A DNA stretch of 64,000 nucleotides, taken from positions 62,001 through 126,000 of the forward strand of contig NZ_JASJOU010000020.1 in the NCBI RefSeq assembly GCF_030068605.1. Direction: 5' to 3'. How positions within the stretch are numbered: position 1 is the first letter of the stretch; the number at the start of each line of letters is the position of its first letter. Made by a program: the position numbers and the translations under genes. Of the stretch, positions 21,566-52,954 are shown piece by piece. The DNA comes from Xanthocytophaga agilis. GTDB taxonomy: Bacteria; Bacteroidota; Bacteroidia; Cytophagales; 172606-1. A model generated the notes under the pieces. The model worked only from the letters and a program-made list of their open reading frames with translations. It was not told the origin of the DNA and did no database searches.

Positions 21566-21634
21566 TTACAAAGTTTACTAATAATGAAAATCTACAAAAG
21601 AGTGTAAATACTTATTTGTAAAAACACGTATTTA
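21566..21634 (-). promoter_or_regulatory. palindromic operator plus promoter, site A
   Basis: On the minus strand: 30-bp palindrome TAAATAC-n16-GTATTTA (21634-21605), CTCTTTT (21602-21596), 22 nt, then CTTTGTAA (21573-21566). The layout is identical in spacing to four other sites at 40428, 40660, 43261 and 46217. CTCTTTT lies 19 nt before AAACTTTG, the distance expected between Bacteroidota -33 and -7 elements. It drives the 66-aa gene. Confidence 0.75.
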
Positions 21635-21903
21635 GCGTACTTGCAACGGTGAAATGAAGTTTTTAAGTATTGGAAGGTAGCTTTTATTCTTTTTTCGATG
21701 AATTAGTTTACTCTCAGTAGCACATAATACATTTTTCCACAAAGGTATTCCTGTCGATACAATACTTGCTCTGGTTATAGTATTGTTCTGGTTCTCTTCT
21801 CTGATTCAGAGGATTGAGTGGGGTAGTTCAATAATTACACAATAAATCCCAACATCTTTTTGTCTAATCATTCGTACATCTTTTTGGCTCCTGCCCTTTG
21901 TGA

Positions 21904-21933
21904 TAAATACTCATTTTAAAAAATAGGTGTTTC
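21904..21933 (+). promoter_or_regulatory. palindromic operator, site G
   Basis: TAAATAC-n16-GTGTTTC, the same 30-bp design with AT-rich centre (ATTTTAAAAAA). A box reading GGTTGTAA lies at 21968-21975, 3 nt further than in the five best sites. It is about 260 nt upstream of the sugar dehydrogenase gene, the likely target. Confidence 0.5.
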
Positions 21934-22190
21934 GCGCAACAGCTTGACGCTTGCCAATAATCTTAAAGGTTGTAAATTGATGTAATTTACTGATATACAG
22001 GCTTTTATGGCGGATGTTTAATTTTAGTGTATACCAACTTCATACTCATCATAGGTGTATTCCTACTTGCTATAAGCATAAACGGGTATAGTTTTTACCA
22101 TCTTCTAGCAAAGCCTTTCTGTAGAAGCATTTTATGTATTCAATGCAGATAATACTTTTTAACTTATTTCTTTTCAAATCGCTTATAATC

Positions 22191-23393
22191 ATGCAATTCA
22201 ATTTTCTACACCCGGTAAAAATGGTTTTTGTGGCAACACTAATGGGCATCATGCTTACAGGTTGCGATTCAAATGATGAGGATGATCCTGATGGCCTTAC
22301 AAAAGTAGAAGGTCATGTTTTCCATCCGGTACAGGAGCAGGCCACAGATCAGAATGTCGCTCAGCTCAAGGTACCTGCAAACTTCACAGTCAGCAAGTTT
22401 GCAGAAAATCTTGGTAAGCCTCGTATGCTGGCAGTAGGCTCTGGCGGGCAGGTATATTTTACAGACAGAGATGCCGGCACCGTAACATTACTGCGAGATA
22501 CTGATTCGGATGGAAAATCAGATCAGTCACAGGTTGTAGCCAATAAACCCAATATGCATGGAATCACTATTTACAATAATCAGATGTATCTGGTTACGGT
22601 TCATGAGGTGTTCTCTGCTGCTATTAACAATGATGGGACACTGGGAACATTAAAAATGCTTATTTCAGATTTGCCCGACGCAGGTCAGCATCCCAATCGC
22701 ACCATTGCATTTGGGCCAGATGGTAAAATGTACATCACTGTAGGTAGTACCTGTAATGCCTGTGAAGAACCGAATGCAGAAAATGCTACCATTTTGCAAG
22801 CCAACGCAGATGGTTCTAACCGAAAGATATTTGCCTCCGGACTACGTAACACAATTGGATTTGGCTGGCATCCTCAAACTCAGAAGATGTATGGCATGGA
22901 TCATGGGATTGACTGGCTAGGAGACAGAGAACAGCAGGAAGAAGTGAATCTTTTGGAACAAGGTAAATTTTATGGCTGGCCTTATATCTACGGCGATGGA
23001 AAATTTAATCCGCAGCCTCCGCCTGAAGATTCTACCTATGAGCAATACCTGGCCAAAACTACACTACCTCTCTTACAGTATGAAGCACATAGTGCCCCAT
23101 TGGCAATGGTATTTTATACTGGCTCACAATTTCCATCTGAGTATCAAACGGATGCTTTTGTTGCCATGAGAGGTTCCTGGAATCGCCGGGACCCTGTAGG
23201 CTATAAAGTAGTACGATTGCGTTTTGAAAATGGACAACCTACCCGTTTTGAGGACTTCCTGACAGGATTTTTGATCAATAATAATACGAGTCATTTTGGA
23301 CGTTTAGCCGGACTGACTGTGCATACCGATGGATCACTATTAGTCTCAGATGATACCAATGGAGTTATTTACCGGGTTTCGTATACTCCGTAA
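22191..23393 (+). CDS. PQQ-dependent sugar (sorbosone) dehydrogenase-like lipoprotein
   Basis: Secreted beta-propeller dehydrogenase of 400 aa from this start. A lipoprotein signal (FVATLMGIMLTGC, Cys about residue 25) predicts an outer- or periplasmic-facing lipid anchor. The family marks are LKVPANFTVSKFAENLGKPRMLAVGSGGQVYFTD, GLRNTIGFGWHPQTQKMYGMDHG and the closing DGSLLVSDDTNGVIYRV. It resembles soluble glucose/sorbosone dehydrogenases that oxidise sugars with PQQ; whether this organism makes PQQ is not visible here. ATG 22191 gives the normal signal peptide; the frame also opens at 22134. The next gene, an SDR, starts 75 nt downstream. Confidence 0.85.
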   Translation: MQFNFLHPVKMVFVATLMGIMLTGCDSNDEDDPDGLTKVEGHVFHPVQEQATDQNVAQLKVPANFTVSKFAENLGKPRMLAVGSGGQVYFTDRDAGTVTLLRDTDSDGKSDQSQVVANKPNMHGITIYNNQMYLVTVHEVFSAAINNDGTLGTLKMLISDLPDAGQHPNRTIAFGPDGKMYITVGSTCNACEEPNAENATILQANADGSNRKIFASGLRNTIGFGWHPQTQKMYGMDHGIDWLGDREQQEEVNLLEQGKFYGWPYIYGDGKFNPQPPPEDSTYEQYLAKTTLPLLQYEAHSAPLAMVFYTGSQFPSEYQTDAFVAMRGSWNRRDPVGYKVVRLRFENGQPTRFEDFLTGFLINNNTSHFGRLAGLTVHTDGSLLVSDDTNGVIYRVSYTP

Positions 23394-23468
23394 ATGCATA
23401 CTTTGAACACAGACATACCAACAAAACATTTTTTGATTTCTATTCTTTTACCTTAACAATCTAATGCT

Positions 23469-24335
23469 ATGCCAACTGATCAATATCCAAATAATTTCCC
23501 TGCGCAAACACAAGACGGCCAACCGGGGATGGAAACTGAAATGACGCCACAACCGGAAGTTATTCGAGAAGACTACCGTGGAAGCGGTAAACTAGAAGGT
23601 AAAGTCGCCCTGATTACAGGCGGTGACAGTGGCATTGGACGTGCAGTAGCTGTACATTTTGCCAGAGAAGGAGCCAATGTTGCCATTGTATATCTAAATG
23701 AAAATGAAGATGCACAGATAACAAAACAACTGATTGAAGACGAAGGTCGGCAGTGTCTGTTGATCCAGGGCGATATTCGGGATGAAAGCTTCTGCCAGAA
23801 TGCTGTACAGCAAACCAAGCAGCGTCTGGGACGGTTTGATGTACTGGTTAATAATGCGGCTGAACAACATCCTCAAGATGATATTCAGACCATTAGCAAA
23901 GAACAGCTGGAAGCAACTTTTGAGACCAATATTTTTTCCATGTTCTATTTCGCCAAAGCTGCATTGAGTCTGTTGCCTGAAGATGGAGTAATTATAAACA
24001 CCAGCTCTGTAACTGCTTATAAAGGCAATCCTACGCTGCTGGATTATTCTTCTACCAAAGGTGCCATTGTTGCTTTTACCAGAGCTTTATCACAGAATCT
24101 GGCTTCCAAAGGAATTCGGGTCAATGCGGTAGCGCCAGGACCTATCTGGACACCCCTCATTCCTGCTACCTTTGAAGCTGAGAAGGTGAGTAAATTTGGT
24201 AAAGATACTCCATTAGGCAGAGCAGGTCAACCATCCGAAGTAGCACCAGCTTATGTATTTCTGGCATCCAAAGATAGCAGTTATATTACCGGACAGGTTA
24301 TCCATGTCAATGGTGGCTCTGTGGTCAATGGGTAA
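23469..24335 (+). CDS. SDR family oxidoreductase (YghA/YdaD-like, general stress type)
   Basis: Short-chain dehydrogenase of 288 aa. It has the N-terminal extension typical of YghA and Bacillus general stress protein 39 (MTPQPEVIREDYRGSGKLEGK), the cofactor motif TGGDSGIGRA (about residues 50-59), NNAAEQHP, and the active site S-x12-Y-x3-K (SSVTAYKGNPTLLDYSSTKG). The C-terminal ITGQVIHVNGG is also conserved. Substrate unknown. It follows the sugar dehydrogenase in the same direction and may share the site G promoter. A hairpin follows at 24388-24434. Confidence 0.92.
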   Translation: MPTDQYPNNFPAQTQDGQPGMETEMTPQPEVIREDYRGSGKLEGKVALITGGDSGIGRAVAVHFAREGANVAIVYLNENEDAQITKQLIEDEGRQCLLIQGDIRDESFCQNAVQQTKQRLGRFDVLVNNAAEQHPQDDIQTISKEQLEATFETNIFSMFYFAKAALSLLPEDGVIINTSSVTAYKGNPTLLDYSSTKGAIVAFTRALSQNLASKGIRVNAVAPGPIWTPLIPATFEAEKVSKFGKDTPLGRAGQPSEVAPAYVFLASKDSSYITGQVIHVNGGSVVNG

Positions 24336-24387
24336 GATCAGGTTTGAAAAGTTTACTGAATACTAGCAGTTTTTACAGCGTACTTAG

Positions 24388-24434
24388 TTGGTTCTGAATA
24401 AGTTAATGCATCTGTCAACTTATTTCAGAACCAA
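24388..24434 (+). terminator. hairpin after the SDR gene
   Basis: A 17-bp stem with one bulged T (TTGGTTCTGAATAAGTT and its partner) and a 12-nt loop. The T-run after it is weak, so efficiency is uncertain. Confidence 0.55.
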
Positions 24435-26115: not shown

Positions 26116-26138
26116 ATTTGCTATTATACAGAAGTAGT

Positions 26139-29944: not shown

Positions 29945-31038
29945 GAGTTGATGGGGTAAAAGCTATATTGATTTTAGTAGGATATTGTCCTTATTACTAT
30001 TCAGATGCTCACATGTTGTGAATTCCGGTTTAAAAAAGTGTCTTTACAGGTTTGTAAAGGTATGGCTGGTATACATGTTCTGAGTAAATACAATTCAGAC
30101 CAGACATTTACTGAACAAACAAAAAAGGAAAGCCAAACGAGCTATGTATAGGATTTCCAAATGAATATCCACTAATGAACATCCTCATAAGAGATAGCTT
30201 GATATCCGTAAAAAAAACATTCCTGTCCGGATGTTTTGTTTTTCGTCCGGGACAAGTTTACCTGGTGGTAAACGACTACTTTTATGTACACCTAGGATAG
30301 ATTAGTGAGGAGCAACACAGCATGTTCTTCCTGAATGTCCAGACTGTTGTTATTGGCTGCTGTTTTATCAGAAGGTACTCAGCTTCTATTTCTAACATAC
30401 AAAATAGCCGCATTGTAAACAGATATGTGGGGCTTGTCTAAGCCTGTACAAACTAGTACGACAGGATCTGATAAAGTTTGGTAATATATCACAAAATGGC
30501 AGAGTTTCTGGTGTGCTTATAGGGAATATATCTTAAATCCTATTCCGGGCTTTCCATCATTTATGTAGACTCCTTATCTCAGCTGGCCCGGCTTTGTACA
30601 GATTGGGGAGGGCTGATAAAAATCATGCCTTGCTATGCTAGCTCTTATCCTGTCTGGCAGTTTAATTGCAACTACATACTGTAAAATATTGAAAACAAGT
30701 ATTTTACACAGTTGGCCCAAGCCATAGCCTGGTATACAAAAGCCAAGCTTATGCCTATTAGAACACACTATTTCATTTCATAAACTTCACACCTGGGTAT
30801 CTGCCACCACTCCAATGTGCGTCAAATACTCCTTTTTAAAAACAGGTATTTAACGCATCCTATATCAATCTACTCTCCAGACAAGGCACTGTTTTGTATA
30901 AGTATTCCTGCAGATAATATAAAATTCTGTTCATACCCAGGTCCGGATAAACGGATCGTCAGATGGTGTACACTTACATCCGGCAGAAATTCTCTGCTAT
31001 GTGAGATCCATAAAAATCACTTAATTAAAACAACCCTT
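29945..31038. other. gene-free region upstream of the DUF4142 gene
   Basis: 1.1 kb without a convincing gene. It contains palindromic site F (30823-30852), an AACAT/ATGTT hairpin near 30209-30228, and a short CTTTACA/TGTAAAG dyad near 30043. A 64-codon minus-strand frame at 30574-30768 lacks protein-like character. Confidence 0.5.
30823..30852 (+). promoter_or_regulatory. palindromic operator, site F
   Basis: CAAATAC-n16-GTATTTA with centre CTTTTTAAAAA. The symmetry extends outward (TGCGT left, ACGCA right), making this the most complete palindrome of the nine. A TTTTGTAT box lies at 30892-30899, 8 nt further than in the best sites. It is about 190 nt upstream of the DUF4142 gene. Confidence 0.55.
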
Positions 31039-38172: not shown

Positions 38173-38701
38173 AACAATGAGTTTGGTATTTGGATTAAAT
38201 CAGTTTGTGCAACCTTTTTTGGGAAGAAAAGAATATAAAAAGAGTATTGCACAGTAAGTCTTCTTTGTATTTATCAGCTTTAGTGTGTATGTAGTACGTT
38301 TATTCTTCTCGAATAACAAATTCGATAAAGCAGCAAAGTCAGATATTGGTTAAAGTGCTATAAGAGTTGAAAAAATGGGTTTTGTAATCTATTGTGTTAC
38401 TTAACCACTATAAATAAAATAGCCTCACTCCACTATCTGACCTCTGAACTGCTTTACAATTGCTTAAATCACTTCATCATCTATTCTTATAGTCTACAGT
38501 CTTTCTGATTCTTGACTTCTATCGCTCCAGGGTTCATGAGAGAGCCGTAGTCAAAAGAATATATTCTGATAAAGAACAAGCAAAAAAATGTGAGGTTGTT
38601 AGTTGTTTTTCTGAAAACTCTCTCCCTCAGTTTTGATCATACATATGATAAAATAATGCCATCTTCTTAACTTTGTTTGGCAGGTGTTACTATCTATGTG
38701 T

Positions 38702-38731
38702 CAACTACTTAATTTCAAAATAAGGTGTTTA
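38702..38731 (+). promoter_or_regulatory. palindromic operator, site H (diverged)
   Basis: CAACTAC-n16-GTGTTTA, with the centre TTAATTTCAAAATAAG. The left arm has one change from CAAATAC. Its centre is nearly the same as that of site I at 52767. No CTTTGTAA box occurs at the standard distance, so activity is uncertain. Confidence 0.4.
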
Positions 38732-39586: not shown

Positions 39587-40078
39587 TTAGAGGGGTATGA
39601 GCTGATCAATGGATTCTGACTGCCATCCGTAATACGGATAGTACATAAATTCAACACAAAGCGAAGAAGGGAGAGTTGAACTTTCACAAATGCGGGAATA
39701 GGCAATAACACGGTTCACTGTGATATACACATCTTCAGAAAACCGGGTCTCTATCTTGTCCGCTTTTATCTCTTCCAGTGCTTTCGCAACAGCTGATTGA
39801 TAGCGCCTATATTTTCTTTCTTTTTCTACCATCTGATAAAGCTCATCTACTTGTCCAATAGGAGATACCCGTGCAATTTTCTTGAGTTTCCAGTCAATTA
39901 GCGCATAGTATATAGGAGTATCCTGATAGAATTTAAATCCAAACTTATAGTCTCGTCCGGCTGCCGGAAATGCAGTTGCATATAATAAAGAAACAACGCT
40001 GGAACAAAGATTCCAGCGAGTTGCAAGGTCTCCGGGACTGAAAATGGTAAATTCTTCAAAGTCTCTCATAATTTTCAT
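39587..40078 (-). CDS. hypothetical protein, paralogue of 37669-38172
   Basis: Soluble protein of 163 aa, related to 37669-38172 over the central and C-terminal parts (see that entry). It has a conserved core with KFGFKFYQDTPIYYALIDWKLKKIARVSPIG and ends in a YYPYYGW motif. No catalytic pattern is recognised. It follows the 65-aa coiled-coil gene by 86 nt in the same direction, so it is probably transcribed from palindromic promoter B (40428-40496). A second ATG lies at 40069. Confidence 0.7.
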   Translation of the reverse strand: MKIMRDFEEFTIFSPGDLATRWNLCSSVVSLLYATAFPAAGRDYKFGFKFYQDTPIYYALIDWKLKKIARVSPIGQVDELYQMVEKERKYRRYQSAVAKALEEIKADKIETRFSEDVYITVNRVIAYSRICESSTLPSSLCVEFMYYPYYGWQSESIDQLIPL

Positions 40079-40164: not shown

Positions 40165-40362
40165 TCAGGACCTTCTTTTTATATACCCATACTTTTCTTC
40201 TTCCAGTAATCGCTGTAGTTTGACCCGGATCTGATTCTGTTCTATGCGAAGCTGATGGATAAGGTCTTGTTGTCTATCCAAAAGAGCACGTAATACAGTT
40301 ATCGTATGCTTTCGTTCTGTAGACATTTGGAGTACGGCTGAATGATTAGCTGTCTTTTTCAT
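40165..40362 (-). CDS. small coiled-coil protein under palindromic promoter B
   Basis: Protein of 65 aa, one long amphipathic helix from about residue 13 to 55 (VLRALLDRQQDLIHQLRIEQNQIRVKLQRLLEEEK). The core E-Q-N-Q-I-R-V-K-L-Q-R-L-L-E-E matches the protein at 21298-21498 (Q-Q-N-K-S-R-I-E-I-Q-R-L-I-E). Both genes have the same palindrome-promoter unit at nearly the same distance (66 and 68 nt from box to ATG). Cytoplasmic; function unknown. Confidence 0.7.
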   Translation of the reverse strand: MKKTANHSAVLQMSTERKHTITVLRALLDRQQDLIHQLRIEQNQIRVKLQRLLEEEKYGYIKRRS

Positions 40363-40427: not shown

Positions 40428-40496
40428 ATACAAAGATTGCCAATCTGATTGCGCTGCAAAAGAGAGTTAATACCCAATTTTTAAAATAAGTGTTTA
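40428..40496 (-). promoter_or_regulatory. palindromic operator plus promoter, site B
   Basis: On the minus strand: TAAACAC-n16-GTATTAA (40496-40467), CTCTTTT (40464-40458), 22 nt, CTTTGTAT (40435-40428). Spacing is identical to sites A, C, D and E. It drives the 65-aa gene and probably the 163-aa gene behind it. Confidence 0.75.
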
Positions 40497-40659: not shown

Positions 40660-40728
40660 CAAATACGTGATTGTCAAATTGCGTATTAACCCTCTTTTAT
40701 AAGAATATTCTGTTGACAAACTTTGTAA
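40660..40728 (+). promoter_or_regulatory. palindromic operator plus promoter, site C
   Basis: CAAATAC-n16-GTATTAA (40660-40689), CTCTTTT (40692-40698), 22 nt, CTTTGTAA (40721-40728). Transcription would start near 40735 and meet the terminator at 40853-40884 before any gene. Confidence 0.75.
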
Positions 40729-40970: not shown

Positions 40971-41414
40971 ATGATTAATCACTTTCAGCTTGCTTGCGGC
41001 AGAATGTATGAACACTTTATTCATTGTGCCTTTGCTGATAAACCATATCAGCTACATAACTATAATCCGGGTCGGATGATGGAACTGATTGTGGTAGAGG
41101 ACTGGAAAGAGGATAGAGAGCTATTTGACAAGTTGCTGACTATTATCAAATCTGATACAGAGAATGCCTGGGATGAATTGTCTGGGAACTATTCCTATAC
41201 TATGCGTCACCACAACACGGACATATCCGATACAGACTTGTTGATTCTGGACGTTGAGAGTAGAGATACTGCAGTTCAGTTTTTGCAAGACCAATGGGTT
41301 TATCTTCGATCTCAGATAGGTCAGGCTTCTTGCTGTAATGACATTATTCAAATCATTTTGTTGGGGTTAACACTGGTTTGTGCTGAACAAAAACTGAATG
41401 AGGATAGTAAGTAA
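40971..41414 (+). CDS. hypothetical protein
   Basis: Soluble, mostly helical protein of 147 aa with no signal peptide or membrane segment. It has a His/Asp-rich middle (MRHHNTDISDTD, about residues 76-87) and two adjacent cysteines near residue 120. I do not recognise a family. It is preceded by the candidate small RNA and its terminator, so it needs its own promoter or read-through. It lies between the small stress-like genes and the DUF421 pair. Confidence 0.6.
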   Translation: MINHFQLACGRMYEHFIHCAFADKPYQLHNYNPGRMMELIVVEDWKEDRELFDKLLTIIKSDTENAWDELSGNYSYTMRHHNTDISDTDLLILDVESRDTAVQFLQDQWVYLRSQIGQASCCNDIIQIILLGLTLVCAEQKLNEDSK

Positions 41415-41708: not shown

Positions 41709-42491
41709 ATGAAAAAAGAAGATATTCATCTCTGGGATATACAGCGCATCCTGCTGGGTGACGCACCGGTAGTGTTTCTGGTAGAGGTCTTTTTACGGTC
41801 GGTATTTATTTTTCTGTTTCTGCTGGTGATTGTCCGATTGCTTGGAAAGAGGATGAACGCCCAGTTAAGTCTCACCGAGATGTCGATTATGATCATGCTG
41901 GGTGCTATTGTTTCCGCTCCAATGCAAGATCCGATACGAGGTCTTTTGCCAGGAGTTGTGATTTTACTTTGTGTGCTTGTTGCGTTAAGAGGAGTGAACC
42001 GACTTTCTGTTGCCTATGCAAAAGTGGAACGGCTGGTACAAGGAGATGTCCGTCTGTTTGTAAAAGATGGTGTTCTCCAGCTCAATCAGATACGTCAGGA
42101 AGGCTTTGAACGGGAGCAGATCTTTTCACATCTGCGTTCAAAAAAAATAACTCATCTGGGGCAGCTTTCACGGGTGTATCTGGAAGCGTGTGGAATAGTG
42201 AGTATTTATCACAGTGACAATCCCAAGCCTGGACTTTCTCTCTTACCCTTCACTGATCAAGTAATTGTTGATCGGCAATACAGTTCAAATGCGCTATTGG
42301 CATGTCATAGTTGCGGCTGGGTAATCAGAGAAAAGAACATGGATCAACAGGTATCTTGTCCCAATTGTCAGGCTAATAGTTGGACAAAGGCCTTAATTAC
42401 TGAAGTTCCACCATCTAAGGATGGAAGTCCTGTCTTTGAAGAAGCCAAAGAGGATTCTCAGAAAATTATTTTTTCATCGTATAAACACTAA
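41709..42491 (+). CDS. DUF421 (YetF-like) membrane protein with C-terminal zinc ribbon
   Basis: Membrane protein of 260 aa. It has three N-terminal helices (about 25-45, 60-78 and 85-103) and the cytoplasmic DUF421/YetF domain with VRLFVKDGVLQLNQIRQEGFEREQIFSHLR and YLEACGIVSIYHSDNPKPG. An added C-terminal zinc-ribbon-like part has two CxxC pairs (CHSCGW and CPNCQ, about residues 200-225). The family occurs among general-stress genes in Bacillus, but the mechanism is unknown. A paralogue begins 6 nt after its stop. Confidence 0.88.
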   Translation: MKKEDIHLWDIQRILLGDAPVVFLVEVFLRSVFIFLFLLVIVRLLGKRMNAQLSLTEMSIMIMLGAIVSAPMQDPIRGLLPGVVILLCVLVALRGVNRLSVAYAKVERLVQGDVRLFVKDGVLQLNQIRQEGFEREQIFSHLRSKKITHLGQLSRVYLEACGIVSIYHSDNPKPGLSLLPFTDQVIVDRQYSSNALLACHSCGWVIREKNMDQQVSCPNCQANSWTKALITEVPPSKDGSPVFEEAKEDSQKIIFSSYKH

Positions 42492-42497
42492 GCTAGT

Positions 42498-43181
42498 ATG
42501 AAAGCTGAAGATATTAAAATCGACGACTTTACCCGGATCTTTTTTGGCGATGCACCTCCTGTTTTTCTGATAGAGGTGATCATTCGCTTCCTGATTATCT
42601 TTATTATTCTGGTTGTGGCTTTGCGTTTATCGGGTAAGTCGCAGGTGTTGTCTCGCAATCGTTCAGAACTGGCAGCCCTGGTATCGCTGGCAGCTGCCAT
42701 TGGGGTTCCGTTGCAACAACCTTCCCGTGGACTTATACCTGCCTTGATAGTGGCAATTGTCATTGTAGGTATTCAACGACTGGTATCTCTCTGGGCTTTT
42801 TCCAATGAAAAGTTTTCTAATGTAGTGAATGGTAAGTATTCTACGCTGGTCGAAGATGGTGTATTGCAGTTGAAAGCTTTACGTAAAATCGGACTTCCCA
42901 AAGAACGGATTGTGGCGTCTATTCGTCAGAGTGGGATTGCACATCTGGGTACGATTGAACGACTCTATATGGAAGCCGATGGCACTTTTACCATTATAGA
43001 AAACAAACAGGCTAAGCCTGGCCTGTCGATGATACCTATATGGGATCGAGAGTTTCGGGATCAGCAAAAAAAAGCACCCAATGTACAAGTCTGCTCTCAG
43101 TGCGGAAGTCCACAACCAGCGGGCAAACAGACTTGTCCGGTTTGTAATCATAACAAGTGGGAGGAAGCGATAGTTTCGTAA
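42498..43181 (+). CDS. DUF421 (YetF-like) membrane protein, second copy
   Basis: Protein of 227 aa and tandem paralogue of the preceding gene: IDDFTRIFFGDAPPVFLIEVIIRFLIIF matches LWDIQRILLGDAPVVFLVEVFLRSVFIF, and STLVEDGVLQLKALRKIGLPKERIVASIR matches the YetF core. The end is again a zinc ribbon (CSQCGSPQPAGKQTCPVC). With 6 nt between the genes they form an operon and may make a hetero-oligomer. A 9-bp dyad at 43192-43231 follows. Confidence 0.87.
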   Translation: MKAEDIKIDDFTRIFFGDAPPVFLIEVIIRFLIIFIILVVALRLSGKSQVLSRNRSELAALVSLAAAIGVPLQQPSRGLIPALIVAIVIVGIQRLVSLWAFSNEKFSNVVNGKYSTLVEDGVLQLKALRKIGLPKERIVASIRQSGIAHLGTIERLYMEADGTFTIIENKQAKPGLSMIPIWDREFRDQQKKAPNVQVCSQCGSPQPAGKQTCPVCNHNKWEEAIVS

Positions 43182-43260: not shown

Positions 43261-43329
43261 CAAACACCTATTTTTAAAATTGGGTATTTACTCTCTTTTA
43301 TGGCCGGATTCTGATAACCAATTTTGTAA
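43261..43329 (+). promoter_or_regulatory. palindromic operator plus promoter, site D (catalase)
   Basis: CAAACAC-n16-GTATTTA (43261-43290), CTCTTTT (43293-43299), 22 nt, TTTTGTAA (43322-43329). Same geometry as sites A, B, C and E. The catalase ATG is 115 nt past the box. Confidence 0.78.
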
Positions 43330-43443: not shown

Positions 43444-44337
43444 ATGTTTTATCATGATAAAAAGCTCCAGTTTACCGTTCGGGTAGAAAAGCCCAATCCT
43501 TTGTTTGCCAGAATGCTTCAACAGGCAATTGGAGGAATCGAAGGTGAGATTCGTGTATGTTTGCAATATTTATTTCAGGCATGGGGGGCACGTGGACCAG
43601 CCAAATACAGAGATATGCTTTTAGAAACTGGCACAGAAGAGATCTCCCATATTGAAATGCTTTGCACTGCAGTAGCGATGAATCTGGATACAGCATCCAA
43701 TGAACTGAAAGATCAGATTGCACGCGATAATCCACTGGTAGGCGCGGCTATGGGTGGTATGGATGTTCGTCACATACTTTCGTCAGGTATGGCAGCCATG
43801 GCAACAGATGCCAATGGTGTACCTTTCAATGGTTCCTGGGTGGTAGGCAGCGGTAATCTGGCTGCAGATATGTATGCCAATGTAATGGCTGAATCAACAG
43901 GACGATTGTTGGCTACCCGTCTTTGGGAATTAACCGACGATCCAGGTATGAAAGATATGTTATCATTTCTGATTGCCCGTGATACAATGCACCAGAATCA
44001 GTGGCTGGCAGTATTAGAGGATTTGGGAGGAGTACAGAATGTACATCCGATTCCAAACAGCTTCCCGCAAACTCAGGAAAAACAGGAGTTCAGCTATACG
44101 TTTGTTTCAACAAACATTGCGGACGGAGCTTCACAGCAAGGACAACGTTGGTCTTCAGGAACCTCCATAGATGGTAAAGGCCAGTTTATCTTTGAAAAGG
44201 CACAACCGTATGGAGAAGAACCTGTATTAAATCCACCCAAACCGGAAGGCCATGCTCAGATGGAGCAAATGGAAGGATCAACGGGAATAGGTGGAAAGAT
44301 CAGTGAATTTATTAGTGAGGTAGGTAAAAAGCTTTAG
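43444..44337 (+). CDS. manganese catalase
   Basis: Non-haem catalase of 297 aa that breaks down H2O2 with a di-manganese centre in the cytoplasm. The ferritin-like ligands are visible: Glu35 (GGIEGEIR), Glu66 and His69 (TEEISHIEM), Glu150 (NVMAEST) and His183 (DTMHQNQW), close to the numbering of the Lactobacillus enzyme. The C-terminal arm (PLFEKAQPYGEEPVLNPP-type) is also present. It is the best known member of the proposed palindrome regulon (site D). A 17-bp hairpin follows at 44356. Confidence 0.95.
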   Translation: MFYHDKKLQFTVRVEKPNPLFARMLQQAIGGIEGEIRVCLQYLFQAWGARGPAKYRDMLLETGTEEISHIEMLCTAVAMNLDTASNELKDQIARDNPLVGAAMGGMDVRHILSSGMAAMATDANGVPFNGSWVVGSGNLAADMYANVMAESTGRLLATRLWELTDDPGMKDMLSFLIARDTMHQNQWLAVLEDLGGVQNVHPIPNSFPQTQEKQEFSYTFVSTNIADGASQQGQRWSSGTSIDGKGQFIFEKAQPYGEEPVLNPPKPEGHAQMEQMEGSTGIGGKISEFISEVGKKL

Positions 44338-44412: not shown

Positions 44413-44431
44413 GTTGTATATACTATACAAC
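44413..44431. promoter_or_regulatory. dyad GTTGTATA-n3-TATACAAC
   Basis: A perfect 8-bp inverted repeat upstream of the small protein gene at 44477. The half-site GTTGTAT is the same as in the palindrome at 13179-13210. A possible operator. Confidence 0.4.
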
Positions 44432-44476
44432 TTCACCAATTACCAGGTGCCCTTTCACGTTTTTATTGAAATTATC

Positions 44477-44716
44477 ATGATCTCAAAAACCACTATCAAG
44501 CCAATCCGTATGCGGATTCAGGAAAAGCGAAAACAAATTGCAGCTCAGAGCAATGTTATCAGTGAACTGATTCAGATTCAAGGTCAGTGCCGCAAAGAAC
44601 TGGACATATTACTGGAGGAGGAGAGGCTACAAAAACGTTCTTTCAGTCTGTTAATCAATAACTCAAAGCAAACAGAACCGCAGCCTGCTGTTTTGCTTGC
44701 AGATACTAGTAAATAA
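44477..44716 (+). CDS. small coiled-coil protein
   Basis: Protein of 79 aa: basic N-terminus, then a helix SNVISELIQIQGQCRKELDILLEEERLQKRSF (about residues 28-59). The core Q-G-Q-C-R-K-E-L-D-I-L-L-E-E resembles the proteins at 40165-40362 and 21298-21498. ATG 44477 is chosen; the frame runs to 44414 but that would start inside an inverted repeat. It follows the catalase and may be read from site D through the hairpin. Function unknown. Confidence 0.6.
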   Translation: MISKTTIKPIRMRIQEKRKQIAAQSNVISELIQIQGQCRKELDILLEEERLQKRSFSLLINNSKQTEPQPAVLLADTSK

Positions 44717-45254: not shown

Positions 45255-45644
45255 TTATGTATTAAAAGCCATTCTTTTTAAGAGTGGCTTTTTTTGTGAG
45301 AACGGTCTTGGCTCGGATAAGTATATGCTTAAGCCTGACAGTTCAAGAATGTATCTTACTTTTCTCCTGATGTATTGCAATTCTGAACGAACTTTAACTG
45401 GAAACAATTGAAAGATCCACACAGGGCTTGTCTCCAAAGGATGTAAACTGAAATAGAGATTATATACATACGCTGTTGCTAAATCCATTTGTCGAGTTGC
45501 TTCCGGTATATTGAGTTGATCTTTTGGAATACTAACAGAAACCATAGCCTGTACAAATGTATATGCAGGCCATAAAGGTTGGACAAGACTTTTACCCGAA
45601 AAAGAGACAAAATACTCGTTATTATAGATGAGTATTTTACACAT
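45255..45644 (-). CDS. hypothetical protein
   Basis: Protein of 129 aa, soluble, with FVQAMVSVSIPKDQLNIPEATRQMDLATAYVYNLYFSLHPL in the middle and a basic C-terminal third. It may be a distant relative of the next minus-strand protein (45740-46060), which has a similar helix-rich order. The last 13 codons (KKPLLKRMAFNT) lie inside the terminator hairpin at 45264-45295, so its 3' end and the terminator of the convergent gene share sequence. No family recognised. Confidence 0.5.
   Translation of the reverse strand: MCKILIYNNEYFVSFSGKSLVQPLWPAYTFVQAMVSVSIPKDQLNIPEATRQMDLATAYVYNLYFSLHPLETSPVWIFQLFPVKVRSELQYIRRKVRYILELSGLSIYLSEPRPFSQKKPLLKRMAFNT
45264..45295. terminator. bidirectional terminator between convergent genes
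   Basis: AAAAGCCA (45264-45271) pairs with TGGCTTTT (45285-45292), 13-nt loop, with T-runs outside. It ends the plus-strand gene at 45191 and overlaps the end of the minus-strand coding region. Confidence 0.75.
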
Positions 45645-46216: not shown

Positions 46217-46285
46217 TAAATACGCAATTTACAAAACAGGTATTTATCCTCTTTCAGAATTTCATTTTCTAATGCAACTTTATAT
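46217..46285 (+). promoter_or_regulatory. palindromic operator plus promoter, site E (possibly divergent)
   Basis: TAAATAC-n16-GTATTTA (46217-46246), CTCTTTC (46249-46255), 22 nt, CTTTATAT (46278-46285). The palindrome also faces a weaker match on the minus strand (TTTTGTTG at 46185-46178). It may therefore serve both a plus-strand transcript and the 106-aa gene. Confidence 0.65.
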
Positions 46286-46753: not shown

Positions 46754-47683
46754 CTATTTTTTTTTATTCTCTTTTATAACCTCACGGGTATTTTTTATTA
46801 GTTCACGCAGATCACCCGAACTCTCCATTTTTAATTTGCTATTGTCAAACATCTTATTGTCCTCTTTGTCTACCAGGGTGGCTTCAAAGACAAACAGATA
46901 GGTATTCTTTTTGCCTTTCTTCAACAAGTCTATTCCAGTTTCCATCAACTGATTGGGTTTTATACTCATTGGTACTTCTATTGTTGCCTTACCCTTAGCT
47001 GGAATATTAACTACTTCTGGCATAGTTCCTTCGGTAAATTTTTCCCCATTCAGATTCATCTGAAAGCGGGCATTGCGTAGTACGAAGGGAAATACGTTTT
47101 TATTGGTAATTTCCGTACGGACAGAATATTTAGTCTGTTTGAATCCAAGCTTATCCAGATCTGCGTCAACAAGTTTAAGCTCCGGAAGCCGTAGAAGAGG
47201 AAGCTTTTTTGAGACTTTCAGCTCAACAGGTTTCTTTTTTAGAAAGGGTAAGTCTGTATAAATGTTTGCTTTGGCCGTGTATTCTGTGCTATCCAGCCCC
47301 TTCTGTTCCAGTTGTTTCAATGTCTGGATCAGTTCCTCATTTTTAATAGTCACCGGCAGAATTATCAGGCTACTGTCATTGCTATTGATATCGACATGTT
47401 TGGGATAGGAGCTCTGCACTACTTTTACGCCTGCAATGTACAACTGATAAGCCAAGCTATCAGCTTCAAAGCCCACCGGGGCTGGATTGTCAATCAGTAT
47501 TTTCATATTTCCTTTCGTATAGTCTTTGTCTATATGAAGGATTTGCATACCAGCCATTTCGATCCTAGGCTTAATAAATGTTGCCTCAGGATCTTTCTGA
47601 GATCGCTGTTGCCAGCGGAAAACCAGATAGCCTCCTGCCAGTACCAGTATCAATACCAGTACTATCCAACCTGTTCTTTTCAT
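46754..47683 (-). CDS. LEA type 2 (WHy domain) family protein
   Basis: Protein of 309 aa with one N-terminal membrane anchor (TGWIVLVLILVLAGGYLVF, residues 3-21) and two LEA_2/WHy-like beta-sandwich domains. The first includes MKILIDNPAPVGFEADSLAYQLYIAGVKV (about 58-86) and the second YSVRTEITNKNVFPFVLRNARFQMNLNGEKF (about 186-216). Such domains occur in desiccation- and stress-related proteins. It probably faces the periplasm. It lies downstream of the cyanophycin genes (187-nt gap), not necessarily in the same transcript. Confidence 0.8.
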   Translation of the reverse strand: MKRTGWIVLVLILVLAGGYLVFRWQQRSQKDPEATFIKPRIEMAGMQILHIDKDYTKGNMKILIDNPAPVGFEADSLAYQLYIAGVKVVQSSYPKHVDINSNDSSLIILPVTIKNEELIQTLKQLEQKGLDSTEYTAKANIYTDLPFLKKKPVELKVSKKLPLLRLPELKLVDADLDKLGFKQTKYSVRTEITNKNVFPFVLRNARFQMNLNGEKFTEGTMPEVVNIPAKGKATIEVPMSIKPNQLMETGIDLLKKGKKNTYLFVFEATLVDKEDNKMFDNSKLKMESSGDLRELIKNTREVIKENKKK

Positions 47684-47870
47684 ATAAAATATAGTTAAAT
47701 TTTTCTTTTAAATGGATCAATATATACCTACACAGATGGCAACAGACCACCTATACCTGCCCGTTATCACATTGAAGAGTGATAGATCAGGCACGCACCA
47801 GCGTTAAAGAAATAAGGATTGGATGTAAGCAGATAGGGAAGGAGAAATGCTTCCGGATTGCAAAAAATAG

Positions 47871-48782
47871 TTATTTGGTAATAGCAACCTGTGTAAAGTC
47901 CAGATCACTACTTATCCATCCCCGAAACATACATTCTGTATTAAAGGAGAAGACCACTTTGCCACAAGCATCCATCGAGATAAGGCCTATGTCTCCCAGG
48001 ACATGTTTATCTTTCTTAAATACTACAAAATCACACGCTTCCTGCAGTTCTTTTCCGGAAAATTCCATCAATGCAGAAACAGAATAGCCAGCTACCTTGC
48101 GCATCAAACACTCTCCATCACCTGTCCCGGAAACTGCACAGGTTATATTGTTGGCATAGCAACCTGCTCCAATCATACAACTATCACCAATACGCCCCTT
48201 CATCTGATTAGTAAGGCCTCCGGTAGACGTCCCCGCTGCTAGATTGCCTTCCTGATCCAGCGCTACGGCTCCAACCGTGTCATTTAATATAACATCCGGC
48301 TTATTTTGCGTTTGCATCTGCATCTCTGCCAGTGCATTGTACTGACTTTCGGAAATGAAGTACGACTCTGGCATAAACGGCATCTGCAGGCTTCTGCCCA
48401 ATTCCATTGCACCTTCGGCACCAATCAGAACATGTGGTGTTTGTTCCATAACAGCACGAGCTAATGAAATAGGATGTTGGATCTGGCGTACCAGCGCGAC
48501 TGCTCCAGCCTGAAGATCTTTCCCATTCATAATAGAAGCATCCATGGCCACTTCTCCTTGCTGATTCAACGCTGCCCCTCGGCCTGCATTAAACAAAGGA
48601 TTTAACTCCATTTGTTGTATGGCTGCCTCTACTGCATCCACTGCCGAACCACCCTGACGCAAGATCCGATATCCTGCCTCCAGGGCATGGTGAAGCCCCG
48701 CTTCATAGGCTTGTTGATTTTGTTTGATACGGGGAGATAAGGATTCTGCTCCTCCGTGAATGGCTAAGGCTACTATAGACAT
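47871..48782 (-). CDS. iaaA: isoaspartyl peptidase / type III L-asparaginase
   Basis: Ntn-hydrolase of 303 aa that cleaves beta-aspartyl dipeptides. The nucleophile is the Thr of NDTVGAVALD (Thr169 from this start), exposed by self-cleavage, and the C-terminal GTSTGG loop is present. The N-terminal IAIHGGAESL-type strand and GGSAVDAVEAAIQQME are conserved. It is the last gene of the cyanophycin operon, so it probably splits beta-Asp-Arg released by cyanophycinase. ATG 48782 is preferred; the longer frame to 48815 begins with GTG and has no extra conserved residues. Confidence 0.93.
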   Translation of the reverse strand: MSIVALAIHGGAESLSPRIKQNQQAYEAGLHHALEAGYRILRQGGSAVDAVEAAIQQMELNPLFNAGRGAALNQQGEVAMDASIMNGKDLQAGAVALVRQIQHPISLARAVMEQTPHVLIGAEGAMELGRSLQMPFMPESYFISESQYNALAEMQMQTQNKPDVILNDTVGAVALDQEGNLAAGTSTGGLTNQMKGRIGDSCMIGAGCYANNITCAVSGTGDGECLMRKVAGYSVSALMEFSGKELQEACDFVVFKKDKHVLGDIGLISMDACGKVVFSFNTECMFRGWISSDLDFTQVAITK

Positions 48783-48862
48783 AGATAAAAAGTAAAAAGA
48801 TGAGAAATAAGGCACTGTTCACTCCACAGGTGTGACAGTGCCCATCGAACAGACACATTCAC

Positions 48863-49759
48863 CTAATGAGATCGAATACTTTCTTCAAGGTCTATATCCT
48901 TCTTGGCCGGGATAAATTTCCGTTCTTTGAGGGTAAACCCATTTCCTTTGGTCAGCAGATGTACTGTCAGATTTTCGGCACTTACAGGTGTGCCCTCTTC
49001 CACATAAGCTATATTCGAATGTCCCAACCCCTTACAGTCAATCACTACAACCATCCCGGAACCACGGCATTCGGCATCATTGCCATTGTGAATGACCAGA
49101 GCTGTATCTTCTCCCAATCCCAGTCCTATACAGGAAGGATTCATGATAACAGCTTCTGCCAGTCGTCCGAACCGCCCGCGGTTGATAAAATGGGTATCTA
49201 TGATGCAATGATCTATGAGTCCCAAACCAGAACTGATTTTTACAGTTCCTTTCAACAAACCCTTGCTGCTATCTCCTCCATAAATCATAATAGCAGACAT
49301 CGCCATAGCACCCGCACTGGTACCTCCTACAATAAATCCAGGTTCCTGGATATACTTCCGGTTAATGACATCTGCTACCTGTGAGCAGCCTAATATGGTA
49401 GAGAGGCGAAACTGATCACCTCCACTAAAGAAGACCGCACTAGCCTTCTCAATACGTTTGACTGTGGCTGGAACTTTTGCCTCTTCCCGATTACCAATAT
49501 GGATAATACCTACATTGGAGATGTTGGCTCGTTCAAAAGCCTTCTGATACTTTTTACCCATCTCATGGGGTTCTTCAGAAGCGGTAGTAATTACCTCAAT
49601 GCGGTGATCAGCTTTGGCATCAGGAGGAAGCAGTTCCTGCAAGACCTCAAAATTTCGAAAGTTTCGGCTTTCCTCCTGAGCTTCTGATAGCTTTTCCGGA
49701 TCTCCCACATCCTCGGCTCCTCCTATAATTAATAATTTTCCTTTAGGAACTTCCTGCAT
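48863..49759 (-). CDS. cphB: cyanophycinase
   Basis: Peptidase of family S51, 298 aa, which degrades cyanophycin to beta-Asp-Arg dipeptides. The nucleophile Ser148 lies in GGTSAGAMAMS, and IIGGAEDVGD, FFSGGDQFRL and DTHFINRGRFGRL are family signatures. No signal peptide is present, so it is an intracellular enzyme acting on stored polymer. The ATG follows the cphA stop by 2 nt, indicating translational coupling; the isoaspartyl peptidase gene follows. Confidence 0.95.
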   Translation of the reverse strand: MQEVPKGKLLIIGGAEDVGDPEKLSEAQEESRNFRNFEVLQELLPPDAKADHRIEVITTASEEPHEMGKKYQKAFERANISNVGIIHIGNREEAKVPATVKRIEKASAVFFSGGDQFRLSTILGCSQVADVINRKYIQEPGFIVGGTSAGAMAMSAIMIYGGDSSKGLLKGTVKISSGLGLIDHCIIDTHFINRGRFGRLAEAVIMNPSCIGLGLGEDTALVIHNGNDAECRGSGMVVVIDCKGLGHSNIAYVEEGTPVSAENLTVHLLTKGNGFTLKERKFIPAKKDIDLEESIRSH

Positions 49760-49761
49760 GA

Positions 49762-52482
49762 TTAGGATGCTTTAGATAAAACAAATGGATGATAGGTTTT
49801 ACCCTGTGTTTGTTGACTAGCTCTGGTTGCAGAAGAGTCCTCTGCAACCAGAGCATCTGGTATATCCAGCGATTGTTCTTTTTGTTGACTTAGTTGTTTT
49901 AAATGAGCAGTCAATTCTTCAATTTCTTCAGCAAGCACAGTGATAAACGCCTTTGAAGGCGCCATATCAAGGGCATAGTTTACTGCATCTTTTTCGTCTG
50001 GAATTACTTTGACCCAGGTTTGAGCATTGTGCTCACCAATTCCTTCTTCAAGCAGACTAATGATTTCCTCAGGATCACGTCCACGCAGATCTTTGTCAAG
50101 CCGGATGATGATCTGATCGAAGATCTGTGCTGCAAGTTTGCCCATAGTCCGGATATCATCAGCCCGTCGATCTCCCACACCTGCAATGATTCCGATCTTT
50201 ACAGATGCTTCTACTTTTCCCATAAAGTGTTGCAACTCCTGCATTCCTCCTTTATTGTGCGCATAGTCAATCATAACTGTGCTATCTGGAAAGGTGAACA
50301 AATTCATCCGGCCAGGTGTATTGTCGGGAGAGGGTACAAAAGAATGCAGTGCCTGCTGAAGCGCCAAAGGTGAAAGTCCCTGTATAAATCCGGCCAGGGT
50401 AGCAGGCAGTATATTTTTGATCATACAGGACGCCTTTCCATCCAGCGTAAGAGGGATAGAAGCAACGTTTGCTATGCGTGTTTTCCATTGCCCCTGGCAA
50501 ATAGTCAGATACCCCTCTTCAATAATAGCCGCCAGTCCTCCCTCTGCACAATGGCGAATGATTCGTTGATTAGTAGGGTTAATGCTAAAAAAAGCTACAT
50601 CACAGTCTACATCGCTGGCCATCTCATATACCAGATCATCATCTGCATTCAGTATGGAGTAGCCATCATTCGCAGTACTACGGGCTACCACACTTTTTAC
50701 CCTTGCCATTTCTTCCAGTGTCTCTATGCCATTCAGACCCAGATGATCCTCTGACACATTGGTAATGATACTGATAGTACACCGATCGAATCCAAGACCA
50801 GAGCGTAGTATGCCTCCCCGGGCACATTCCAGTACTGCTACGTCTACTGAGGGGTCTGTTAGTATCATGCGGGCACTTTTAGGACCCGTACAGTCTCCCT
50901 TTTGAATCAGATGGCCCTGAATATAAATTCCCTCAGTTGTTGTATATCCTACCGTTTGTCCGGTCTGACTTATCATATGGGCAATTAACCGAGTAGTGGT
51001 TGTTTTTCCATTGGTACCTGTGACAGCAATGATGGGAATGCGTGCCTGTATATTCTTTGGAAACAGCATATTTATAACCGGTGCAGCAACATTTCGGGGC
51101 AGTCCTTCGGTAGGAGATAAATGCATCCGGAACCCCGGTGCTGCATTTACTTCAATTACAGCGCCGGTAGCGGTTGTAATGGGTTGTTCAATGCTTTGCG
51201 TAACAATGTCAATTCCACAAATATCAAGACCCATCAGACGGGCTATCCGCTCAGCCATAAATACATTGTGTGGATGCACCTGATCTGTGACATCTGTCGC
51301 CGTGCCTCCGGTACTCAGGTTTGCAGTCCGTTTCAGAAAAAGTGTCTCTCCTGAAGGAAGGATTGTTTCCAGTGTATATCCTTTTTCGTTCAATATAGAT
51401 ACAGTGGCCTGGTCAATCTTGACACTCGTAAGAACCTTTTCATGTCCTTCTCCCCGGCGTGGGTCCGTATTGAGTTCATCTATCAGTTGCAGAATGCTTT
51501 GTATTCCATTTCCGATAATGAATGGGGGAGTACGTCGGGCAACAGCTACCAGCTTATAGTTGATAACCAGAAACCGATAATCTTCACCCTGTATAAATCT
51601 TTCGACAATGACTGTATCCGATATGCGTTTGGCCAGTGAAAATGCCTCCCAGGCCTGCTCCAGCAAACGAATTCCTGTAGTTACTCCACGTCCGTGATTT
51701 CCATCGAGAGGCTTGATCACAAGCGGAAATCCCATTTCTTCAATGGCAGCCTGTAGCTGGGGTTCTTTTCGTATAGTTACTCCATACGCAACAGGGATAC
51801 CTGCTTTGTCGAGCACCTGTTTTGTCTGCTCTTTATCAGCAGCCAGTTCTACACCCATATTGCTTGTAGTCTGAGCAATGGTAGCCTGGATTCTTTTCTG
51901 GCGGCTTCCCTGACCAAAAATGATTTCACTACCATCGTCCAGTACCTGATAAGGAATCTTTCTTGTTTCAGCTTCTTGCACAATAGATAAGGTACTTGGT
52001 CCGAGTTGATGATCTTGTTTGATACGAACAAGCTCCCTGATATCATCCTCAAGGGTAAAAGCCGTATTTTTTGCCAGTGCTTCTGCTATGCGCACAGCAG
52101 CTGTAGCTGCATATAAGCCCGCTTCTTCTATTTCATAGGAAAAAACGACATAGTATACACCTATCTTTCCTGTGCCACGGGTTCTTCCAAAGCCACATGG
52201 CATACCTGCCAGATTTTGTAGTTCCAGGGCTATGTGTTCTATTACATGTCCCATCCAGGTTCCATCATAGACACGTTTAAAAAAACCACCACGATGATTT
52301 TCAGAACAGCGGTGTTCAATTAAAGACGGAATCTGTGTTTCTATTCGTTCGGAAAATCCATCAATGGTGTGGGTCGGATAATATTCCAATTCTTCCAGGT
52401 CAAGCTTCATGACAATAAGCTTCTGACGGTAGGCAGACCAGTAGTTAGGGCCTCGCATTACCTTTGTTTCAAGTACTTTCAT
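49762..52482 (-). CDS. cphA: cyanophycin synthetase
   Basis: Enzyme of 906 aa that builds the aspartate-arginine storage polymer multi-L-arginyl-poly-L-aspartate. Three parts are seen: the N-terminal domain (1-160, LEELEYYPTHTIDGFSERI and GTWMGHVIEHIALELQ), an ATP-grasp ligase (about 205-480, with FPLVIKPLDGNHGRGVTTG and VIEVNAAPGFRMHLSPTEG) and a C-terminal Mur-ligase-like domain with the P-loop VTGTNGKTTTTRLIAHM (about 490-506). Length fits the family. It heads the operon cphA-cphB-iaaA. Palindromic site I (52767) is about 290 nt upstream but points the other way. Confidence 0.95.
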   Translation of the reverse strand: MKVLETKVMRGPNYWSAYRQKLIVMKLDLEELEYYPTHTIDGFSERIETQIPSLIEHRCSENHRGGFFKRVYDGTWMGHVIEHIALELQNLAGMPCGFGRTRGTGKIGVYYVVFSYEIEEAGLYAATAAVRIAEALAKNTAFTLEDDIRELVRIKQDHQLGPSTLSIVQEAETRKIPYQVLDDGSEIIFGQGSRQKRIQATIAQTTSNMGVELAADKEQTKQVLDKAGIPVAYGVTIRKEPQLQAAIEEMGFPLVIKPLDGNHGRGVTTGIRLLEQAWEAFSLAKRISDTVIVERFIQGEDYRFLVINYKLVAVARRTPPFIIGNGIQSILQLIDELNTDPRRGEGHEKVLTSVKIDQATVSILNEKGYTLETILPSGETLFLKRTANLSTGGTATDVTDQVHPHNVFMAERIARLMGLDICGIDIVTQSIEQPITTATGAVIEVNAAPGFRMHLSPTEGLPRNVAAPVINMLFPKNIQARIPIIAVTGTNGKTTTTRLIAHMISQTGQTVGYTTTEGIYIQGHLIQKGDCTGPKSARMILTDPSVDVAVLECARGGILRSGLGFDRCTISIITNVSEDHLGLNGIETLEEMARVKSVVARSTANDGYSILNADDDLVYEMASDVDCDVAFFSINPTNQRIIRHCAEGGLAAIIEEGYLTICQGQWKTRIANVASIPLTLDGKASCMIKNILPATLAGFIQGLSPLALQQALHSFVPSPDNTPGRMNLFTFPDSTVMIDYAHNKGGMQELQHFMGKVEASVKIGIIAGVGDRRADDIRTMGKLAAQIFDQIIIRLDKDLRGRDPEEIISLLEEGIGEHNAQTWVKVIPDEKDAVNYALDMAPSKAFITVLAEEIEELTAHLKQLSQQKEQSLDIPDALVAEDSSATRASQQTQGKTYHPFVLSKAS

Positions 52483-52766
52483 TGGTAGGTCTTTAGGTTT
52501 GCCATACCATCGGTAAAAAATATGCCCGTATTTAGACTTTTTACAGGCAAAATGGGATTATACTTATTTGAAAAGCAGAGCAGGCTAATGCTCTGGCGTA
52601 TAACTACCTAGTTCAGTAAAAGTTCTCTGCTTTACTGTAAGGTTAGCACATATATACTTTTTTATAGATCTATTTTTCAGAAAATGCATTTTTGCAAATG
52701 GAAGGTTTTGAGGGGCGAAAACAGGACAGCTTACGTATTTTTATCTCTCATATACTATATATGTGG

Positions 52767-52796
52767 TTGTTACTTAATTTCTAAAATGAGTGTTTG
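52767..52796 (+). promoter_or_regulatory. palindromic operator, site I (diverged)
   Basis: TTGTTAC-n16-GTGTTTG with centre TTAATTTCTAAAATGA, close to site H. A CTTTATGT box at 52831 lies 3 nt beyond the standard place, the same offset as at site G. No gene follows for 1.8 kb on the plus strand. Confidence 0.4.
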
Positions 52797-52954
52797 TACG
52801 TATAATCAGCGTTTTGTATTTCGTTCCCCACTTTATGTAAGCAAGGAAAAGTTGTGGAAAAGCAGGTGAGAAGATGTAGAATTCTGTTTTGGAACAATAG
52901 TCAAACCTGAGCCATTCCGAAGTTTGGAGGTAAGTTTATTTTTCAAAACCAGCA

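Follow-up and report, generated by a model that had tools for sequence, protein, structure and literature searches.

A wide palindrome at a fixed distance from promoters in Xanthocytophaga agilis, and its probable recognition by a NarL/FixJ-type response regulator

The window and its palindromes

The DNA analysed here (the window) spans 64,000 nucleotides, positions 62001-126000 of contig C20 in the 9.77-Mb, 66-contig genome (G000) of Xanthocytophaga agilis, and carries repeated copies of a 30-bp palindrome lying close to promoter-like sequences. A sequence-only reading of the window had reported nine such palindromes, with 7-bp arms around a 16-bp centre, and all nine are present where it had placed them. 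Two promoter-like elements accompany the palindromes: a TTTG box at a fixed distance (type A), and the element GGCANNNTTTT/TGGCAYTRTTTTAT at variable distances (type B). Offsets are counted throughout from the G of the outer GTA, and positions elsewhere in the genome are given by contig (C) or locus (L). The features of the window that bear on the palindromes are as follows.

15242..20554, + strand: PAS/GAF sensor kinase of 1770 aa with HisKA_3 and HATPase_c domains, ending 1.05 kb before the 21605 palindrome
21605..21634, - strand: palindrome, type A; its minus-strand TTTG (21569-21572) precedes the coiled-coil gene 21298-21498
21904..21933, strand unassigned: palindrome with neither promoter element
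30823..30852, + strand: palindrome, type B; GGCACTGTTTT from about 30885, with the DUF4142 gene start about 193 nt from the outer G
38702..38731, - strand: palindrome, type B; element on the minus strand at 38660, offset 48
40165..40362, - strand: small A5-family protein, coiled coil by eye, with relatives at 21298-21498 and 44414-44716
40467..40496, - strand: palindrome, type A; before the coiled-coil gene 40165-40362 and gene 39587-40078
40660..40689, + strand: palindrome, type A; its TTTG (40722-40725) is followed by gene 40971-41414 and then by two YetF/DUF421 genes
41709..43181, + strand: the two YetF/DUF421 proteins, behind the 40660 promoter
43261..43290, + strand: palindrome, type A; TTTG at 43323-43326, before the manganese catalase gene
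43444..44337, + strand: manganese catalase (PF05067), a type A target
45609..45638, - strand: extra palindrome; CTCTTTT and a TTTA box at offset 39, minus strand
46217..46246: palindrome flanked on either side by a box at offset 39, a rightward TTTA and a leftward TTTG
46754..52482, - strand: LEA_2, asparaginase_2, S51 peptidase (cyanophycinase-like) and cyanophycin synthetase genes
52767..52796: palindrome without a type A or type B element, the weakest of the nine, 285 bp before the cyanophycin synthetase gene
53883..53912, + strand: extra palindrome, type B; element at 53953, offset 47

A position weight matrix (PWM) built from the nine reported palindromes scores each of them at 26.7 or more, compared with a best score of 10.1 in 1 Mb of first-order Markov background sequence. 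When the window is scanned with it, the two extra palindromes emerge at 53883-53912 (22.5) and 45609-45638 (21.0), and the next score is 8.0. The shared core is AAATAC-N16-GTATTT, with TTT and AAA carried in the centre. Many sites (e.g. C18:126092) also have an outward extension, TGYG...CRCA, whose place is taken on the type A promoter side by CTCTTT. Scans of the window gave no Rfam match at gathering thresholds and no tRNA.

Distribution across the genome

A sequence-only model of the eleven window sites, searched in both orientations (R1), recovers 33 distinct sites in the X. agilis genome at E ≤ 0.01, the next match being C1:516398 with an E-value of 0.06. The sites are clustered, with 21 of the 33 on just two contigs (11 on C20 and 10 on C18) and the others on C4 (three), C1, C3, C7 and C19 (two each) and C8 (one); every C20 site falls inside the window, which is 0.65% of the genome. 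All later counts use a working set of 34 sites scoring above 15 in the fetched neighbourhoods, and hence 68 site sides, 30 of which have the outer pair CGCA or CACA at offset 8. A pattern search of the full genome gives 102 matches against 50 for the reversed control; when the gap is set to 18 instead of 16, the numbers are 53 and 54. The description of the sites as intergenic holds for 32 of the 34, which lie outside open reading frames (ORFs) of at least 100 aa at loci where the coding fraction is 0.711; the other two, at 30823 and 45609, overlap ORFs whose starts we judge to be over-called.

Geometry of the promoters

At about half of the sites a TTTG box stands at one exact distance from the palindrome. 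TTTG starts at offset 39 on 16 of the 68 sides, compared with a mean of 0.44 over the other offsets between 8 and 69 (binomial tail 1e-20), and the same spacing is found on 13 of 54 sides in a congener (G001, described below), so support for the fixed activator-promoter geometry proposed from the window extends beyond it. An A is present at offset 36 on all 16 of these sides, which were selected on TTTG, and CTC at offset 9 on 12 of the 16 compared with three of the other 52; TTT follows the CTC, although not always as TTTG. Three further sides have TTTA or TTCG at offset 39, two of them at sites lacking TTTG. Some 47 bp separate the palindrome centre from the TTTG downstream, which agrees with the predicted location near -55. 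At five window sites the sequence-only reading had described a fixed order of palindrome, 2 nt, CTCTTT(T/C), 22 nt and box; the order is gap-free at all five, but the forward box at 46.2 kb is CTTTATA rather than TTTG, and the opposite strand of that site has a TTTG at this spacing. Nor is the geometry shared by every site: 16 of the 34 have TTTG at offset 39, two have TTTA or TTCG only, seven have GGCANNNTTTT only (offsets 39-50), and nine have neither element. A role for the palindrome as an RNA hairpin or terminator was set aside by argument only, as the box with which it is coupled comes downstream of it.

The type A box is close to the TAnnTTTG of the Bacteroidota primary sigma factor. 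Bacteroides primary-sigma promoters are described, in the excerpts of two reports, as having TAnnTTTG at -7 and TTTG near -33 (PMC7366714, PMC12632263). The AnnTTTG box and -33-like CTCTTT element resemble this arrangement in part, and differ from it in that the full TAnnTTTG is present in only three of the 16 type A boxes and in the fixed spacing to an upstream operator. A second stress-associated promoter class of Bacteroidota, motif 2 of B. thetaiotaomicron, is enriched in oxidative stress and has a -10/-30 core; the search behind it extended only to -50, and the excerpt describes no palindrome upstream (PMC7366714).

The type B element occurs on eight of the 68 sides (window 30885, 38660 and 53953; C18:126092, 176352 and 178643; C19:7339; C1:516398) where about 0.8 would be expected from its background frequency (43 in 603 kb of strand, the eight included). 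It possibly reflects another sigma factor or a cofactor. Sigma-54 was considered for TGGCAYTRTTTTAT and rejected by eye, since the GC of the consensus -12 element is missing.

The variable type B distances, together with the nine sites that lack a recognised promoter element, would be compatible with the palindromes being operators of a repressor and not of an activator. However, at type A promoters they have a fixed place just upstream of the -33 region, 39 bases from the TTTG, which is the usual position for an activator and leaves the promoter itself free, and we regard repression as improbable. With activation preferred, the combination of palindrome, 39 bases and TTTG offers a readable rule for predicting activated promoters in this order.

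Conservation in a congener

The congener G001 has 27 such sites in the stretches fetched around its matches, of which 25 could be paired with X. agilis sites. The two left out, C33:238868 and C44:410007, show similarity over only 33 and 75 bp, while C44:253472 (108 bp) and C44:253843 (73 bp) were kept by syntenic order despite short similarity. Over these 25 pairs, mismatches affect 9 of 350 arm positions (2.6%) and 27 of 400 in the inner 16 bp, compared with 520 of 3407 (15%) in flanks 10-80 bp away. In G002, another congener assembly that is 72% complete, R1 had no match at E ≤ 0.01.

The number of copies and their clustering on two contigs might suggest a mobile element, or a repetitive extragenic palindrome (REP)-like repeat carrying a promoter, and two near-identical outer-membrane protein genes that each have a type B site could be read in the same way. 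But sites at different genes have only the palindrome and promoter in common, the great majority of G001 sites pair with those of X. agilis, and the arms change far less than the flanks; the homology beyond the palindrome and the differing positions between close species that would mark a REP- or MITE-like (miniature inverted-repeat transposable element) family are not seen. We consider this origin very improbable, and take it as almost certain that the sites are genuine, selectively maintained and coupled to promoters.

A candidate response regulator

The strongest candidate for a protein acting at the palindrome is an orphan response regulator (RR) encoded at C18:171948-172682, with a receiver domain (PF00072, 7.4e-31) and a LuxR-type helix-turn-helix (PF00196, GerE, 2.9e-16); it is below the cut-off of all 25 NCBIfam models shown. 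The gene lies inside the C18 cluster of sites and is followed, after about 390 bp, by a type A variant; G001 has the same layout. When R1 was run on 59 genomes (X. agilis included), 11 gave matches at E ≤ 0.01, strong ones only in G000 and G001. In two genomes of the same family the best match adjoins a LuxR-type RR gene, 158 bp upstream of it in G004 and 162 bp downstream in G006, and G006 has another gene of this type, with a weaker site (E 0.055 with R1) 288 bp upstream of it. The C18 protein is the best X. agilis match of both the G004 RR (49% identity) and the G006 RR (41%) among the 21 X. agilis RRs compared (from 37 GerE matches, of which 30 had loci, 24 were entered and 3 of these lacked a usable frame), and residues D8, D9, D55 and K105, which represent the acidic pocket, phospho-acceptor Asp and Lys expected for phosphorylation, are invariant across the three proteins when aligned.

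The association recurs in further families. With these three RRs as queries against named genomes, the best 80 loci (1.26 Mb) have their top core scores (21.1, 21.0 and 20.5, with 17.6 the best elsewhere) at sites 326, 559 and 521 bp downstream of the RR gene, in a member of the Cyclobacteriaceae (L214) and in metagenome-assembled genomes of Bacteroidetes (L191) and Bacteroidales (L193). By eye, the TTTG offset is 39 at L191, L193, G004 and the G006 site on C138, 38 at L214, and 40 at a weak site in L197. A second model that includes the promoter (R2), built with the L191, L193, G004 and G006 sequences and so biased towards a spacing of 39, finds 89 distinct sites outside the genus at E ≤ 0.005 in 291 genomes of the order. 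At least eight of these are within 1 kb of one of the 148 RRs listed, where 0.03 would be expected, and at least five without the model donors G004 and G006 (0.029 expected); strand duplicates were merged by hand, and the counts are lower bounds because the RRs are the matches listed, down to an E-value of about 3e-48. Moreover, 14 of the 15 genomes with an R2 match below 1e-4 contain the RR, compared with 122 of all 291 (hypergeometric 3e-5, uncorrected for kinship). Further RR-adjacent cases are L316 (G171) and L370 (G364, related at the level of phylum only), where the site is just downstream of a LuxR-type RR gene. In two genomes of the f12 group, G227 and G239, an R2 site lies about 150 bp from another RR of the family.

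Candidate kinases

A PAS kinase gene precedes the RR gene in G006, and the first 200 residues of its product match the window kinase 15242-20554 (41% identity, 2e-35), while its transmitter is 48-50% identical to those of three X. agilis kinases. Among X. agilis transmitters, those most similar to that of the window kinase are C18:128573 (79%) and C3:656389 (65%), followed by C18:194340 (42%) and the rest at 38% or less. The three kinases with the most similar transmitters, all with HisKA_3 domains, each have a palindrome nearby, about 1.05 kb after the gene in the window and about 0.3 kb before the C18 and C3 genes. The window kinase is a candidate kinase for the RR, and the recurrence of palindromes at related kinases suggests that several sensors may feed one regulator.

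Target genes

Several of the targets named in the sequence-only reading, the manganese catalase and small coiled-coil proteins, do stand behind type A promoters, the latter (coiled coil by eye) directly behind four of them. Further type A targets are a gene followed by two YetF genes, receivers, and one protein that is behind two type A promoters (window 44787 and L081:14926). On contig C7 a type A promoter precedes an operon of RsbRD-, RsbS- and RsbT-like genes ending with a SpoIIE-domain protein gene, the domains being in order RsbRD_N plus STAS, STAS, HATPase_c, and HATPase_c_2 plus SpoIIE. The gene-free transcripts that had been predicted have counterparts in two type A variants, C18:173077 leftward and 46217 rightward, behind which no ORF of 45 or more codons starts within 500 nt. 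Type B targets include genes for DUF4142, YetF and PAS proteins, a CBM48/alpha-amylase (GH13) protein that we read as TreZ-like, and the two near-identical outer-membrane-like proteins. Other neighbours of palindromes encode LEA_2, cyanophycin synthetase, S51 peptidase, asparaginase_2, DUF892, alcohol dehydrogenase and CheB proteins; the LEA_2, asparaginase_2, S51 peptidase and cyanophycin synthetase genes at 46754..52482 are probable members of the regulon, by neighbourhood only.

The small coiled-coil proteins include one family (A5-type, about 65-100 aa, with a QNxxRxELQRLLE-like stretch), with members at 21298-21498, 40165-40362 and 44414-44716 in the window, L080:7684-7890 and 8870-9091, L081:4444-4671, and C4:587439. 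Among the five genomes searched it is confined to this genus: six coiled-coil proteins, picked as queries for their nearness to sites, found one further X. agilis copy (C4:587439, 6 kb from a site) and five G001 copies, whereas G003, G004 and G006 had no match at E ≤ 0.01.

The family names of these targets support the proposal of a stress regulon, and by these names only the targets would guard against several stresses, as expected of a general stress response; on this basis we lean slightly towards such a response as the role of the regulon. An RR-driven developmental, nutrient or storage programme would account for the cyanophycin and GH13 genes, the several receivers, CheB and the proteins without Pfam matches, and for sites in other families that precede different genes (by eye YceI-like, STAS-like or unannotated). 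Manganese catalase, LEA_2, DUF892, DUF4142, YetF and RsbRST-like proteins, however, occur together in stress regulons elsewhere, and we find a non-stress programme rather unlikely.

Proposed mechanism

From the sites, their geometry, the conservation of their arms, the neighbouring genes and the association with RR genes, we infer the following mechanism. The palindrome would be the operator of one NarL/FixJ-type RR, that encoded at C18:171948-172682, which would be phosphorylated, most likely by the multi-PAS HisKA_3 kinases encoded near palindromes. Bound as a dimer to both TAC half-sites (TAC-N16-GTA), the RR would sit immediately ahead of the -33 region at type A promoters, some 47 bp separating its centre from the TTTG of the -7-like box, and would recruit RNA polymerase with the primary sigma factor. 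The output would be a stress-survival regulon of about 34 sites, comprising the manganese catalase, YetF, DUF4142, DUF892, LEA_2, cyanophycin and GH13 proteins together with small coiled-coil proteins, the RsbRST-like module and sensor proteins. We consider this account as a whole probable, and its central step, that the RR binds the palindrome and activates, likely.

Several observations weigh against it. First, nine of the 34 sites, including that before the C3 kinase gene, have no recognised promoter element, and few type A boxes have the full TAnnTTTG. Secondly, the flanks on the kinase side of the palindromes (window, C18:126092 and C3) have neither promoter element. Thirdly, the 24 f12 loci of the nearest RR relatives (L275-L298) show no convincing operator when scanned for the palindrome, and a few have possible half-sites only, AATACTGATTT. 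Fourthly, the phylum-wide R2 search matched only 12 of 395 genomes at 5e-4, X. agilis included (11 of 394 others, none strongly), and among the 10 new loci read from it one (L370) has an RR gene beside the site. Finally, 81 of the 89 order-wide sites are not within 1 kb of an RR among those listed, and an RR encoded beside an operator could be a target and not the binder. This last point, together with promoters that point away from the RR gene at G004, G006 C138, G227 and G239, would fit recognition of the palindrome by some other regulator, with the RR only a target or neighbour. Set against this, adjacency to the RR recurs in several families, both upstream and downstream of the gene, and the TACYYAT-like half-sites resemble the NarL heptamer, TACYYMT; we think another regulator unlikely and continue to favour the RR.

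Relationships to known systems

The candidate resembles NarL/FixJ-type RRs such as NarL, VraR, RcsB and DesR in its receiver and GerE domains, its inverted TAC half-sites and its pairing with HisKA_3 kinases; its best match of solved structure is VraR, aligned over residues 1-148 only. The 7-2-7 site of NarL corresponds to TAC-N10-GTA, and the half-sites here, 16 bp apart, are wider. The target families are similar to those of SigB in Bacillus, RpoS in E. coli and EcfG-PhyR in Alphaproteobacteria. Those systems use a dedicated sigma factor, whereas the box here is primary-sigma-like and selectivity would lie in the activator. PhyR systems offer a further likeness, in that several kinases feed one response regulator, according to the excerpt of one report (PMC5898713). 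Vibrio vulnificus likewise has an RsbRST-type module in a Gram-negative bacterium, a stressosome described with a two-component system in the excerpts of two reports (PMC9237108, PMC10014275). The RsbRST-like operon of X. agilis, unlike that stressosome, is behind a type A promoter and therefore looks like a target.

Bacteroidota are not known to possess the general-stress sigma factors of other bacteria. We tentatively suggest, as a possibility short of the probable, that these bacteria run a general stress response through a phosphorelay in which several PAS kinases act on one NarL-type RR whose wide operator stands at an exact distance from primary-sigma promoters. The operator-RR pairing would then be old, shared by several families of the order and met now and then beyond it, while each family would have rewired the target set. 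Every part belongs to a known kind: a NarL-type RR, PAS kinases with HisKA_3, an activator site ahead of a primary-sigma-like promoter and an RsbRST-like module. Their combination, the wide TAC-N16-GTA operator at a base-exact distance and a Bacteroidota stress regulon under it are apparently undescribed: the titles and opening lines of abstracts in a mainly open-licence literature, preprints not included, contain no description of this operator or of a general stress regulator of Bacteroidota. Nor do the open-licence papers listed explain how Bacteroidota, lacking RpoS, SigB and EcfG, respond to stationary phase or to stress in general. The operator consensus, the promoter geometry, the candidates for regulator and kinases, and the roughly 34 sites with the genes around them offer a circuit that can be tested.

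Other observations

In L321 (G227) and L331 (G239) the operator lies between the RR gene and a divergent gene and points to STAS-domain-like proteins (by eye), another link to partner switching. In seven loci of family f18 (L305, L306, L308, L314, L319, L332 and L333), unannotated proteins are preceded by operator-promoter units that closely resemble one another, GAGTATAAATACTC... with ATTTGTAATG at 39; these are possibly a separate regulon of the same kind. R2 sites in L096, L105 and L312 (G016 and G167) are upstream of a small cluster of unannotated genes conserved between two f10 genomes, one product of which is papain-type-protease-like by eye. Within X. agilis, the near-identical outer-membrane-like genes are on separate contigs, at L082:6008-6691 and L086:5074-5757, and both have a palindrome and type B element upstream. 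By eye, L082 (3273-4998, C19) also has a short ORF that resembles the beginning of the cyanophycin synthetase of the window, and after it another cyanophycinase-like gene; this partial duplication of the 48.8-52.8 kb region has a palindrome of its own at C19:2937.

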